Shown in pieces: positions 14,058 to 54,937 of a stretch of DNA of 64,000 bases. Source of the DNA: Neorhizobium huautlense (GTDB lineage Bacteria > Pseudomonadota > Alphaproteobacteria > Rhizobiales > Rhizobiaceae); NCBI RefSeq assembly GCF_002968575.1, contig NZ_PVBM01000007.1, positions 1 through 64,000 of the forward strand, in the 5' to 3' direction. Position 1 is the first letter of the stretch; each line of letters opens with the position of its first letter. Both the position numbers and the translations under genes were made by a program. The notes under the pieces are model-generated. The model made no database searches. It saw nothing but the letters and a program-made list of their open reading frames with translations, and was not told where the DNA came from.

Positions 14058-14522
14058 TCATTTGAGCCGCATCTTGAAGCCGAAATGGCTCTTGGCGAAG
14101 CCGAGGCGCTCGTAAAAACGGTGCGCATCGACGCGCGCCATATTGGAGGTGAGCTGGACGGACCGGCAGTCGCGGCGCCTGGCCTCTTCGATCGCGTAGC
14201 CGATCATCTGCGCACCGATCCCTTGGCCGCGCATGTCGGCTCGCGTCTGCACGGCTTCTATAATCATCGAAAGCGATCCCCTGCCCGTCAGGGTGCGGTT
14301 GAAGAGGACCTGAAAGGTACCCACCACTTCGCCCCCACGTTCAGCCACGAAAAGCTGCTCGTTCTGGGAGGCGTCGATCATGTGGAAAGCGCGCAGATAG
14401 TCCTCGAAAGCCTCGTCCGCCGTCGTGTCTGCGTGGCCGCCGATAGCGTCTGCGGCAAAGAGGGCAATGAGTGCGGCAAGATCCGTTTCCCGTGCCCGGC
14501 GGATCAGCAGATTATCCGTCAC
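14058..14522 (-). CDS. GNAT family N-acetyltransferase
   Basis: Probable acetyl-CoA-dependent N-acetyltransferase of unknown substrate. The GNAT fold is supported by an N-terminal IRRARETDLAALIALF strand-helix and the acetyl-CoA loop motif RADMRGQGIGAQMIGYAIEE, followed by VQLTSNMARVDAHRFYERLGF. I chose the GTG at 14522, which is preceded by AAGGAAAA; an ATG at 14570 would add 16 residues that look unlike the family. It is divergent from the secreted protein at 14585. Confidence 0.8.
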   Translation of the reverse strand: MTDNLLIRRARETDLAALIALFAADAIGGHADTTADEAFEDYLRAFHMIDASQNEQLFVAERGGEVVGTFQVLFNRTLTGRGSLSMIIEAVQTRADMRGQGIGAQMIGYAIEEARRRDCRSVQLTSNMARVDAHRFYERLGFAKSHFGFKMRLK

Positions 14523-14584
14523 CTGTTTTCCTTTCCGACAAGAATCAGCAATGATCGGTACGGGGACCATAGAGGGATCGGGTA

Positions 14585-15022: not shown

Positions 15023-15526
15023 TTAGGCTGGCAGGCGCTTCTCCAGGATGACCGCCGGCAGACCGGAATTGGGAGCTCCCCACTCCTCCATGCGGTCGAC
15101 CTCGGAAAATCCGAGCCTGGTGTAAAAAGAAATCGCACGGACGTTTTGCAGCGCCACCTCGACGCGCATGATCTCCGCATCCGGAAAACAGGTTTCGAGT
15201 TCGGCAAAGATATCGCGCCCGATGCCTTCGCTCTGGCAGGAGGGCCTGACGTAAAGCTGGTGAAGCATCGCCGTCTTGGCCATCTTCGGATACACGGCGG
15301 CGTAACCGATGCCGCCGATGCCCTTGCCGTTGTCGGCAACCAGGAATTCGCCTTCTCTTTTTTGAATTCGCGATCGAATGGCGGCAAGGGAATGCCAGCC
15401 ATCAATCATCTTCTGCACCCGTTCGGACCCGTAAAATGGATCGTAGGTGGCATGAAACGTTTCCGCCAACAAGCTGCGGATTTGCTCCACATCCCGTTCT
15501 CCGGCGGTGCGTACGAAGTAGACCAT
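15023..15526 (-). CDS. GNAT family N-acetyltransferase
   Basis: 167 residues. The acetyl-CoA signature is LYVRPSCQSEGIGRDIFAEL, followed by MRVEVALQNVRAISFYTRLGF, a standard GNAT C-terminal half. Substrate unknown. The stop codon lies 9 nt from that of the convergent secreted-protein gene. The start is 4 nt downstream of the gatB stop, so it is probably translated from the gatB transcript. Confidence 0.85.
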   Translation of the reverse strand: MVYFVRTAGERDVEQIRSLLAETFHATYDPFYGSERVQKMIDGWHSLAAIRSRIQKREGEFLVADNGKGIGGIGYAAVYPKMAKTAMLHQLYVRPSCQSEGIGRDIFAELETCFPDAEIMRVEVALQNVRAISFYTRLGFSEVDRMEEWGAPNSGLPAVILEKRLPA

Positions 15527-17101: not shown

Positions 17102-17611
17102 TTAGAAGCTCGGTCCATAGGTATCTGGCGCTTCCACCACGAGACGCTTGGAGAGCCCTACCGATTGCACATCCCGGTCGATCTTGGGCGAATAGGCCAC
17201 AGTCAGCCAGTTGACCGAATAGCCGTGCTTTTCGAAGAAGCCGACAGCCTCCGTATTGCGGGCGTGGGTTTCGACCCGCGCAACCTCAAATCCCTGATGG
17301 ACGATCTGCGCCTCGATCTCTTCCAGAAGCAGCTTACCGAGCCCCTGGCCCTGAAATGCCGGATCGATCCAGAAATCGGAAATCAACTCGTCCAGCTTCT
17401 CGCGCGCAGCCCAACCGGCGACATTGCCGCCCTGCTCTACGATCGTAATCGTGAGCCACGAGGAATGGGTGAAATTCTGGAAGGCGGAAAAGGCGCTTTC
17501 CCGCATATCGGTCATCTCGCCGATCGAGATCATGGCCTTTTCCCAAGCGCGAAATCCCACTTCCGCAAGGGTATCCACTTCATCTTCACGCGCATTGCGA
17601 ATGCTGGCCAT
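17102..17611 (-). CDS. GNAT family N-acetyltransferase, paralogue of 19090-19590
   Basis: 169 residues; acetyl-CoA motif FWIDPAFQGQGLGKLLLEEI followed by RVETHARNTEAVGFFEKHGY. It shares the pattern EVGFxAW, GWxARE, SDxW, QGxGxGxxLL and THAxN with the GNAT at 19090-19590, so the two are paralogues. It starts 282 nt from, and divergent to, the YjhX-type gene. In E. coli the YjhX toxin is encoded with a GNAT-type partner, YjhQ; whether this protein has that role is untested. Confidence 0.85.
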   Translation of the reverse strand: MASIRNAREDEVDTLAEVGFRAWEKAMISIGEMTDMRESAFSAFQNFTHSSWLTITIVEQGGNVAGWAAREKLDELISDFWIDPAFQGQGLGKLLLEEIEAQIVHQGFEVARVETHARNTEAVGFFEKHGYSVNWLTVAYSPKIDRDVQSVGLSKRLVVEAPDTYGPSF

Positions 17612-17691: not shown

Positions 17692-17720
17692 CTTGACGCT
17701 TGGGGAAAACGTGCTAGCAG
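17692..17720 (+). promoter_or_regulatory. Candidate promoter for the yjhX leader
   Basis: CTTGAC (17692-17697), a 17-nt spacer and TAGCAG (17715-17720) fit the rhizobial housekeeping consensus CTTGAC-N17-CTATAT at the -35 and only moderately at the -10. Transcription would start near 17727 and give a leader of about 165 nt before yjhX. Confidence 0.45.
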
Positions 17721-17726
17721 CGAATT

Positions 17727-17893
17727 CGTACCGATGGAGTTTTAATGTTCTCTTCCGTAGAGACCTTCTGAAGGGCCGGTCAGCGACGTAAGCCGCGCCG
17801 GCCCAGGCAAAAACGAGAGCCCCGACGCCAACCAAAGCGCCGGCAACGTTTTTGTGCGCTCGCGAGCGAGCGCCTATCCGGACATCAAAACCA
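17727..17893 (+). promoter_or_regulatory. Structured leader of yjhX with an 8-codon uORF
   Basis: GGAG stands 5 nt before an ATG at 17745 that opens an 8-codon frame (MFSSVETF, stop at 17769-17771). The uORF overlaps small hairpins TCTCT-TCCGT-AGAGA and CCTTC-T-GAAGG. A 7-bp stem GGGCCGG/CCGGCCC (17773-17779 with 17798-17804) follows. A second GCGCCGGC at 17837-17844 could compete for pairing, and GCGCTCGC-GA-GCGAGCGC (17856-17873) lies 20 nt before yjhX. The yjhX start itself has only a weak SD. The layout resembles translational or Rho-type attenuation; function is inferred. Confidence 0.5.
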
Positions 17894-18151
17894 ATGGATA
17901 TCTCCCGCGCCGAACAGCGCATCCTCCACCTGCTCGCCCAGGGCGGCAGGATCGAAATCACCCGCGACGAAAACCGCAAGATCGAAAAGCTGCAGCTCTT
18001 TACCCGCGAAGGCTGGGTTTTCTCCCGCATCGATCTGATCACTTTCCGCAAGCTCAAGCAGAAGAAGGCGATCCGATCCAAAGCTGGCAAGCCTTACCGC
18101 ATCACCGAAAGGGGGTTGGTGCTGGTGAGAGCCGAACAGGACAACCGGTAG
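17894..18151 (+). CDS. YjhX/TopAI family protein (UPF0386), putative topoisomerase I inhibitor
   Basis: 85 residues, exactly the length of E. coli YjhX. The whole protein matches the family: MDISRAEQRILHLLAQGGRI, then GWVFSRIDLITFRKLKQKK and GKPYRITERGLVLVR. In E. coli, YjhX (TopAI) is reported to inhibit topoisomerase I and to be countered by YjhQ. Here a GNAT gene lies divergently upstream, and topA itself is at 31.4 kb in this window. The start at 17894 was chosen because homologues begin MDISRAEQ; a longer frame from 17852 would add 14 unrelated residues. Confidence 0.85.
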   Translation: MDISRAEQRILHLLAQGGRIEITRDENRKIEKLQLFTREGWVFSRIDLITFRKLKQKKAIRSKAGKPYRITERGLVLVRAEQDNR

Positions 18152-18376: not shown

Positions 18377-18772
18377 ATGAAACTGCTTGCCCTCACCACA
18401 GCCGCCGCCCTCTCCTTTTCGGCGAGCGTGCCCTATGCTCAACAGACCCCTGAGACGCCACCGAGTTCCCCGCCCCAGGCGGATGCGCCTCCCCGCGACG
18501 CGCCACCGCCCGCAGCACCGGCCGAACAGGATCAGGATACGGTCAAAGGCGAATGGCGGATGCATCCTCCGCTCCGTGAGAGAGGGGCGCGCTTCCGGAT
18601 CGAGACAGGCCGTACGACCATCGATCTTCGCTGCCCAGACGGAGAGCCGGCGAAAGACTGCGCCGATCTCCTCCTGCAGGTGCTTGACCGGCTACAGGGG
18701 GATACGTCCTCGGACAGCAACGACCGCCGCGACGACGACCGGGACCGTCCGCGTTCCCGCTGGGATAGATGA
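18377..18772 (+). CDS. Hypothetical Pro-rich secreted protein
   Basis: 131 residues, family not recognised. A signal peptide ([20 protein letters not shown]) is followed by a Pro/Ala-rich spacer (about residues 24-52), a short core FRIETGRTTIDLRCPDGEP with a conserved-looking Cys pair (LRCPDG, KDCADL), and a strongly charged Asp/Arg tail (RRDDDRDRPRSRW). Probably periplasmic. ATG at 18377 follows GGAGG with a usual spacing (GGATCTGGAGGCCTCCAA). Standing alone, its neighbours give no clue to its role. Confidence 0.7.
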   Translation: MKLLALTTAAALSFSASVPYAQQTPETPPSSPPQADAPPRDAPPPAAPAEQDQDTVKGEWRMHPPLRERGARFRIETGRTTIDLRCPDGEPAKDCADLLLQVLDRLQGDTSSDSNDRRDDDRDRPRSRWDR

Positions 18773-19089: not shown

Positions 19090-19590
19090 TTAAGGGCGGC
19101 CAAGCATCTTTTCCAGATGCACCTTTTCCAGCTCGACGCCCATGGCTTTGGAATGTTCAAAACCGCGCCAGACAATAGCAAAGCCGCAACGCTCATAGAG
19201 ACGGATGGCGCCGAAATTCTTTGCATGGGTATCGAGGCGAACCGTCCGAAGACCTTCCGCTGCGATCACGTCGCAAAGATGAAGGAGCAGCGACCGACCG
19301 ACACCGCGGCCCTGGCGATCCGGGCGAACCCAAAGATCCGACACATAATTCGGTGCGTTTTCGCGCGCGCCCCAACCGACAATCTCTCCATCCAGCTCCG
19401 CGACATGGATCTCGGCGCCACCTTCTGACGGAAAGATCGCGAACTCATGTTTTACCCGGGCAACTACCTCGGGATCGAGATAACTCTCCTCGAACGCATC
19501 ACTGGCGGACCAGGCCGCAAAACCGACTTCGCCGACCACGTGGTGATCGGCGATTATCATTTTCCGGATTTTAAGACCGCTTACCACCAC
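19090..19590 (-). CDS. GNAT family N-acetyltransferase, paralogue of 17102-17611
   Basis: 166 residues. Acetyl-CoA site [20 protein letters not shown] and C-terminal [21 protein letters not shown]. The first codons overlap the end of gatA by 10 nt, which suggests translational coupling to gatA. A Met at residue 11 is an alternative start that would remove the overlap. It is clearly related to the GNAT on the other side of yjhX. The substrate is unknown. Confidence 0.83.
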
Positions 19591-39130: not shown

Positions 39131-39310
39131 AAAAGAAAAGCGCCGCTCCCATGACATGGAAGCGGCGCTTTTAAATGGGGGTCGACCAGCTTGCAATCAC
39201 GGCACGAGGAACCGCTTTGGTATGCCTGCCAGTCGACCGACCCCACGACCCAGGAGATGCGGCGGACCTGAACATCATGGGGTATGACGATCCCTTTAGG
39301 GAACCCATAG
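39131..39310 (-). ncRNA. Candidate small RNA, minus strand
   Basis: The 3' end is a perfect 12-bp terminator (AAAAGCGCCGCT 39136-39147 with AGCGGCGCTTTT 39161-39172), followed on the minus strand by TTTTCTTTTATG. Upstream, 39238-39228 (GGTCGACTGGC) pairs with 39190-39180 (GCTGGTCGACC) over 11 bp using two G-U pairs that can form only in a minus-strand RNA; in the plus-strand RNA these are C-A mismatches. CCC-TAAA-GGG lies near 39301. No promoter could be fixed with certainty, so the 5' end is approximate. Confidence 0.5.
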
Positions 39311-54791: not shown

Positions 54792-54937
54792 ACAAAAGAG
54801 GCAAGGAGTTCAAATTCTTGCCATTTCGCGGTCAAGTCTTGGGAGGATCAGATCTTAGGCGCGCTTGTTCGCTGCCCCGGCAACGGTTAAGGATCACGCG
54901 AAACTTGAAACAAGGCTTAACCGCCTTGTTTTTTTTT
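54792..54937 (+). ncRNA. Candidate small RNA with intrinsic terminator
   Basis: A promoter-like pair (GTGACA, 17 nt, TAGGTT) predicts a start near 54792. A first hairpin GGCAAG-N11-CTTGCC follows within 30 nt. The 3' end is a classical terminator: AAACAAGGC (54908-54916) with GCCTTGTTT (54923-54931) followed by nine T (54929-54937). No protein frame with a family match is present. Length about 146 nt is typical of trans-acting sRNAs. I cannot assign it to a named sRNA family. Confidence 0.6.

Follow-up and report, generated by a model that had tools for sequence, protein, structure and literature searches.

A conserved uORF leader upstream of yjhX in Neorhizobium, probably a rhizobial version of the toiL-type translation-stress switch

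Results

The yjhX locus and its leader

The window, by which we mean the whole stretch of 64,000 nucleotides analyzed here, contains a gene of the YjhX/TopAI family that is preceded by a leader with a short upstream open reading frame (uORF) and several hairpins. The features of the locus are listed below; for the helices, the percentages refer to cells that pair across the 37 leaders of the genus.

17102..17611, − strand: divergent GNAT acetyltransferase gene (Pfam GNAT), a frequent neighbor of yjhX, outside the leader
17693..17698, + strand: −35-like TTGACG; TTGA[ACT] is kept in genus leaders
17715-17720, + strand: weak −10-like TAGCAG, read from the sequence
17736..17739, + strand: GGAG, Shine–Dalgarno (SD) sequence of the uORF, 5 nt 5' of the ATG at 17745
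17739..17750, + strand: 5' arm of helix P1 (end of the SD, start codon and codon 2); 91.9% of cells paired
17745..17771, + strand: uORF of 8 codons, MFSSVETF followed by TGA; kept in 37/37 genus yjhX loci
17773-17779/17798-17804, + strand: P2, GC hairpin directly after the uORF stop; 97.3% of cells paired, 3 two-sided changes
17808-17815/17847-17854, + strand: P3 outer helix, CAAAAACG/CGTTTTTG; 90.8% of cells paired, 2 two-sided changes
17822-17828/17837-17843, + strand: P3 inner helix; 97.3% of cells paired, 3 two-sided changes
17856-17861/17868-17873, + strand: P4, hairpin adjoining the yjhX ribosome-binding site (RBS); 78.6% of cells paired, 4 of 6 pairs changed on both sides
17880..17891, + strand: 3' arm of P1, which is the yjhX RBS (GGA at 17880-17882), supported by the pairing tests
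17894..18151, + strand: yjhX (topAI homologue), 85 amino acids; full-length match to PF09857, 128.7 bits

The YjhX protein of the window shares 45% identity over 85 amino acids with E. coli TopAI, and among named species N. alkalisoli comes nearest (96% identity), with 98% in a Rhizobiales isolate. E. coli YjhX/TopAI is described as an inhibitor of TopA that is neutralized by an antitoxin in the TopAI–YjhQ type II toxin–antitoxin module (PMC4666372). The same paper reports two palindromes in E. coli, which may instead be sequence of the leader hairpin. Matches to PF09857 occur in 107 of 247 genomes of the family, 16 of 289 of the class and 40 of 398 of the phylum, in samples that overlap. The predicted structure of the protein (pLDDT 89.8) has the order helix-strand-strand-helix-strand-helix; its structural matches in the PDB are weak (best E 0.036, none at E 0.001) and include ribosomal and winged-helix proteins, and a sequence search of the PDB returned nothing below E 0.14.

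The initial annotation had described a leader with a promoter-like pair, a uORF and stems upstream of yjhX, and this overall observation is confirmed, with the elements present where they had been placed. The uORF does have a good ribosome-binding site, GGAG lying 5 nt ahead of the ATG here and in all 37 genus leaders, and the 7-bp GC stem is P2. The promoter-like pair holds in part: TTGACG is there, and TTGA[ACT] occurs 49-56 nt 5' of the uORF ATG in 27 of the 37 genus leaders (5 others have it at 77-84 nt, and in the remaining 5 a nearer match masks the place), but TAGCAG is only weakly −10-like and no promoter for the leader emerged from a sigma-70 consensus scan of the + strand. From the sequence we infer a transcription start near 17727. 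The GC stem next to the yjhX start, given as 8 bp, exists as P4, but with 6 pairs by our count and 7 in the fold. The stems of the proposed structure are likewise present, but the model of competing segments lacked P1, the helix between uORF and RBS that is likely the working part; P1 and P3 are both additions to the earlier description.

Of 200 shuffled sequences, 199 fold less well than the leader stretch 17728-17896 (z −3.2). An Rfam scan of the leader gave no family at threshold, its sole weak match (a CRISPR repeat, E 1.6) being noise, and a scan of the + strand for the terminator consensus found nothing resembling a terminator. Just two Rfam families reach threshold anywhere in the window, an ar9 sRNA (54792-54937, +) and an EcpR1 sRNA (39175-39285, −), both unrelated to the leader.

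Gene neighborhood

Four GNAT genes (14058-14570, 15023-15526, 17102-17611 and 19090-19590, all on the − strand) cluster around gatB-yjhX-gatA. E. coli YjhQ is also GNAT-like, so one of the four might be an antitoxin, and the divergent gene at 17102-17611 is a possible candidate. We rejected the identification of this gene as YjhQ itself, the match being only 23 bits and reflecting generic GNAT similarity. No YjhQ match was found within ~1.5 kb downstream of yjhX in the window's locus (L001), unlike the layout of the type II module, in which yjhQ comes directly after. Among the 186 yjhX loci collected, YjhQ-like matches occur in 12, namely E. coli and 11 others. In the 143 loci with a picked uORF, a YjhQ-like gene lies downstream of yjhX in the same orientation in 10, the divergent GNAT gene adjoins yjhX in 61, and gatB or gatA lies near it in 93; the gat and GNAT counts are lower bounds, because the loci are short. 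Downstream of yjhX, an ORF of 131 amino acids (18377-18772, +) has a signal-like start and a proline-rich stretch; it has no Pfam or NCBIfam match, and tblastn found it in none of the other loci among the 186.

Conservation within the genus

The yjhX gene is present in 37 of 57 genomes of the genus, and all 37 carry the same leader and uORF. Conservation of the uORF and stems among relatives, which had been suggested initially as a check, is thus borne out. Two of the uORFs (L034 and L037) have lost the stop and run to 12 codons. The last residue is Arg in 27 of the 37, Cys in 5, Phe in 3 (including the window) and Ala in 2. The genus leader alignment was trimmed to start at GGAG.

A covariance model built from the 37 genus leaders was run over the 57 whole genomes with strict filters, at most 52 candidates being scored per genome. 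It matched at the 37 yjhX leaders with E 2.8e-18 or better, each match abutting yjhX. Since these leaders match by construction, the actual test is the absence of matches elsewhere: the next matches had E 0.034 (opposite strand of one leader) and E 0.062 (a genome without yjhX), and under the strict filters no leader beside a gene other than yjhX was found at a convincing score in the 57 genomes.

Because the RNAalifold consensus obtained from a MAFFT alignment was poor, the helices P1-P4 were written from the window sequence and scored across the 37 leaders. Overall, 91.5% of cells pair, compared with at most 47.4% when the partners are slid, and the covariation score of 0.182 (0.125 in shuffles) was reached by 0 of 500 shuffles. 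Within P1 no pair changed on both sides in the 37 leaders, the variation consisting of one-sided changes or unpaired cells.

Conservation beyond the genus

With the same model, 31 of 121 genomes of the family match at E 0.1 or better, and the best match in each lies at yjhX, abutting it in 28 and 20-68 nt off in 3. The model overlooks divergent leaders, as G468 and G471 have yjhX and no match. A short nucleotide search of plasmids yielded 5 Rhizobiaceae records.

For a broader survey, the 186 loci were reduced to 166 by removing duplicates, whose 200-nt upstreams were identical, and L174, which lies at a contig end, and to 162 upstreams by leaving out L185 and L186 (no yjhX start at the expected place) and L141 and L159 (insertion). 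An SD-led ATG uORF of 4-14 codons at −190 to −100 was found in 144 of the 162 distinct yjhX upstreams, compared with 250 of 5000 random stretches of the window (5%) and 7 of 67 upstreams of long ORFs; in shuffled yjhX upstreams, for which a wider interval was scored, an ATG uORF occurred in 7.0%. The uORF has 8 codons in 119 of the 144 and ends in Arg-stop in 114, with varying Arg codons (CGG, CGC, CGT, CGA and AGA). The combination of 8 codons and a terminal Arg occurs in 99 of 162 yjhX upstreams versus 0 of 5000 random stretches. When the 18 others were considered together with L050 (mispicked), 17 had a related uORF by peptide motif, a post hoc assignment; the uORF of L067 was found on reading its upstream, and L047 is the sole case among the 162 upstreams with no uORF even by looser post hoc reading. 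In 45 of the 52 representatives folded, a hairpin that begins only a few nt from the stop codon has z < −1.

The two Pleomorphomonas loci L141 and L159 carry a partly palindromic insertion of ~115 nt in the P4 loop, with the uORF, the other hairpins and the RBS kept. Loci L109 and L134 are titled Arenimonas MAG and Marinicella sp. W31, yet have rhizobial-type yjhX and leader; the names may be wrong or the DNA misbinned.

Pairing of the uORF with the yjhX ribosome-binding site

The pairing between each uORF and its own RBS was compared with permuted RBSs in 53 representatives at most 72% alike, three of which had mispicked uORFs (L049, L050 and L069). The mean energy of the own duplexes was −15.3 kcal/mol compared to −12.5 (SD 0.39) for permuted RBSs; pairing as strong was reached in 0 of 20,000 permutations, and the own RBS beat the median swap in 42 of the 53. 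In a separate test with 40 synonymous recodings of each uORF in 52 representatives (L049 and L069 corrected, L050 out), the pairing exceeded the mean of the recodings in 48 (p = 2e-9 by the Wilcoxon test). The pairing thus tracks sequence changes between lineages and seems to be kept at the RNA level.

The window is the exception among the genus leaders, P1 being predicted at every 5' length tried in the other 36 of 37. In its P1, A17744 lies opposite C17886 as a mismatch, a place where G is found in L002 and L003, which are close relatives. The energy of its own-RBS duplex ranks 27 of 53, and the native uORF is equaled in pairing by 27 of 40 synonymous shuffles. With a 5' leader of 17 or 22 nt, the 5' side of the uORF pairs with the RBS instead and covers less of it, and at these lengths the window is the only one of the 37 genus leaders with fewer than 6 expected P1 pairs. 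The window copy may therefore be a weakened version, with a helix weaker than those of its relatives.

Ensemble folding of 23 leaders indicates that the register of the pairing differs among lineages. The RBS pairs with codons 1-2 in the window and in L003 (N. alkalisoli), and Neorhizobium G007 uses the end of the uORF in addition to these codons. In A. tumefaciens B6, S. meliloti Ak57, R. lusitanum and Pleomorphomonas the partner is codons 5-8 or 4-8, in three Rhizobium-group leaders both uORF ends, and in E. coli codons 1-6. Other leaders are mixed, such as Hoeflea olei (codons 1-3) and Jiella (mostly 5-7).

In 12 Rhizobium-type loci (L050, L124, L127, L129, L139, L143, L146, L147, L153, L154, L155 and L160) TTGAC lies exactly 35 nt 5' of the uORF ATG and the uORF has no clear SD. 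Together, these two traits suggest that the uORF probably begins at the 5' end of the mRNA and is leaderless. The 12 loci are interrelated and do not represent 12 independent events.

The predicted effect of a ribosome on the RBS pairing is modest and mixed. Among 51 representatives, a ribosome simulated at the uORF start lowers the mean RBS pairing from 0.72 to 0.53 and one at the last codon gives 0.57, compared with 0.70 for a block in mid-leader; drops larger than 0.1 occur in 27 and 30 of the 51 leaders for the start and last codon, respectively. The start-codon ribosome frees the RBS in L003 (0.83 to 0.17) and in E. coli (0.62 to 0.11), and in the window lowers its pairing from 0.41 to 0.33 with a 17 nt leader and from 0.65 to 0.34 with 12 nt. 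Neither ribosome position lowers the RBS pairing in S. meliloti (0.66, 0.66, 0.65) or in Hoeflea olei.

Peptide styles on the YjhX tree

The YjhX tree comprises 68 proteins (L092 and L161 left out) and has few columns, many unresolved forks and an arbitrary midpoint root. The uORF peptides were classed by a strict ToiL rule, as the MLN-type peptides of L054, L124, L127 and L129 would otherwise be easily counted as ToiL. The main branch (support 97/82) separates 28 rows (24 ToiL, 3 ESR and 1 other) from 40 rows (36 ESR and 4 other). On both sides the uORF lies at the same distance, with 8 codons in 19/28 and 35/40 and a terminal Arg in 16/28 and 33/40, and on both sides there is a stop-codon hairpin and pairing with the own RBS. 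The permutation test gave 0 of 20,000 permutations as low for the 28 ToiL-side leaders and 6 of 20,000 for the 40 window-side leaders.

The initial annotation had raised the idea of an independent attenuator with no sequence conservation. This idea is not supported: the peptide styles track the YjhX tree and the traits listed above are shared by both sides, which speaks for a single old leader rather than a separate rhizobial origin.

Discussion

Proposed mechanism and alternative explanations

These results lead us to propose that the leader is probably a rhizobial version of an old translation-stress switch of the toiL type, a reading drawn from sequence comparison and folding. The uORF-leader arrangement is common to many relatives and is therefore probably an old sensor of stalled ribosomes. 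The comparisons strongly support a toiL-like design: a conserved 8-codon uORF with a good RBS, ~150 nt 5' of yjhX, has a sequence able to pair with the yjhX RBS, the hairpins P2-P4 between the arms of P1 bringing the arms together. In healthy cells ribosomes would leave the uORF fast, the leader would refold and yjhX translation would be off, perhaps with a premature stop of transcription in addition, as in E. coli. Ribosomes dwelling on the uORF would block the pairing and free the yjhX start, and the protein would be made; in Neorhizobium the dwelling would be chiefly at the uORF start codon, as with tetracycline-type drugs. If YjhX acts as in E. coli, the product would be an inhibitor of TopA.

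One alternative is an attenuator that works through the nascent peptide, in which ribosomes are arrested at the Arg-stop end when a particular drug or metabolite is present and, once stalled, open P2 instead of P1. The terminal Arg of 114/144 uORFs, kept despite varied codons, and the hairpin close behind the stop are what such a mechanism would lead one to expect. However, among close relatives of the window the terminal codon has shifted to Cys or Phe, and the window itself has Phe; the + strand has no terminator-like site in the consensus scan; a simulated last-codon ribosome does not free the window RBS, its pairing going from 0.41 to 0.70; and the conservation of CGN may come partly from pairing with the RBS in clades with a late register. 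We regard this alternative as unlikely.

It is distinctly unlikely that the rhizobial leader arose by convergence, apart from E. coli toiL. The peptides do differ (MFSSVETF and MLENVIIR), as does the pairing register, and the proteins share 45% identity, but the split of the peptide styles coincides with the main YjhX branch, and the uORF, its length, the Arg end, the stop-codon hairpin and the RBS pairing occur on both sides of it. A leader that binds a ligand or protein, or acts as an RNA thermometer, with an incidental uORF, would account for the three conserved hairpins, above all for P3, which is strongly kept and of which the pairing model explains only the spacing. This explanation appears quite improbable, since the place and length of the uORF are kept across divergent leaders while the hairpin sequences change, and no Rfam family reaches threshold in the leader. 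Action of the uORF peptide in trans, for which peTrpL of S. meliloti provides a precedent in the same bacterial family (PMC7298713), is hardly credible here, as the peptide varies between close relatives while the pairing in cis is kept.

Returning to the toiL-type switch, it is quite possible, and we propose it tentatively, that a single ancestral uORF switch on YjhX predates the divergence of its alpha- and gammaproteobacterial forms. Between lineages its register would have moved from the start codon, as in Neorhizobium, to the uORF end, as in Agrobacterium and Sinorhizobium, and to both ends in one Rhizobium group, where the uORF is apparently leaderless. Stall codons and hence antibiotics would then differ from lineage to lineage, and the gene in Rhizobiaceae would stand without yjhQ in a gatCAB neighborhood. 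Should YjhX be guarded in this way across Alpha- and Gammaproteobacteria, the sensing of stalled ribosomes would be the ancestral control of this family of topoisomerase inhibitors. The natural variety of registers lends itself to testing whether the site of ribosome stalling decides which antibiotic the leader senses, and the leader is a conserved landmark for annotating yjhX loci.

Comparison with known systems

In the toiL-topAI leader of E. coli, ribosomes stalled on the uORF were found experimentally to control topAI (Baniulyte and Wade 2025, PMC12121999). That paper describes toiL for E. coli and for species whose TopAI is similar, reports the first seven ToiL residues as conserved in bacteria with topAI-yjhQP, and may include Caulobacter-like species in its figures. 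The window shares with E. coli a YjhX/TopAI-family gene directly downstream of the leader, an SD-led uORF of 8 codons (starting at −149 nt in the window and −139 nt in E. coli), and a hairpin at the uORF stop. Pairing of the uORF with the downstream RBS, as in E. coli, is predicted in 36 of the 37 genus leaders; in the window the mismatch weakens it and a 5' leader of 17 or 22 nt displaces it. The Arg-stop of E. coli and most relatives is absent from the window, and the conserved first seven residues of ToiL are not found in its peptide (MFSSVETF versus MLENVIIR), which is linked to ToiL only through the wider family. The Neorhizobium register is the start-codon region, whereas that of A. tumefaciens B6 and S. 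meliloti Ak57 is codons 4-8. The rhizobial leader usually has neither yjhQ nor yjhP downstream; it has gatB/gatA neighbors and conserved P3/P4 hairpins, and is apparently leaderless in one Rhizobium group.

Attenuators of the ermB/ermC type work with alternating hairpins. The yjhX leader has instead one long-range helix between uORF and RBS, and it precedes a toxin homologue instead of a gene for resistance. Common to both would be a stalled uORF ribosome that alters the RNA structure and thereby allows downstream translation, a comparison also drawn in PMC12121999.

No paper on the rhizobial yjhX leader was among the literature matches listed. The uORF attenuator of S. meliloti duf1127-1 is described in a paper (PMC12218461) whose main text contains neither the words toxin, topoisomerase, topAI and toiL nor yjhX. 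Like the switch proposed here, it is a rhizobial uORF leader that senses translation, duf1127-1 being induced by tetracycline, but its uORF has 29 amino acids and the mechanism proposed there is Rho-dependent termination ahead of the gene, after the uORF, governed by C-rich codons.
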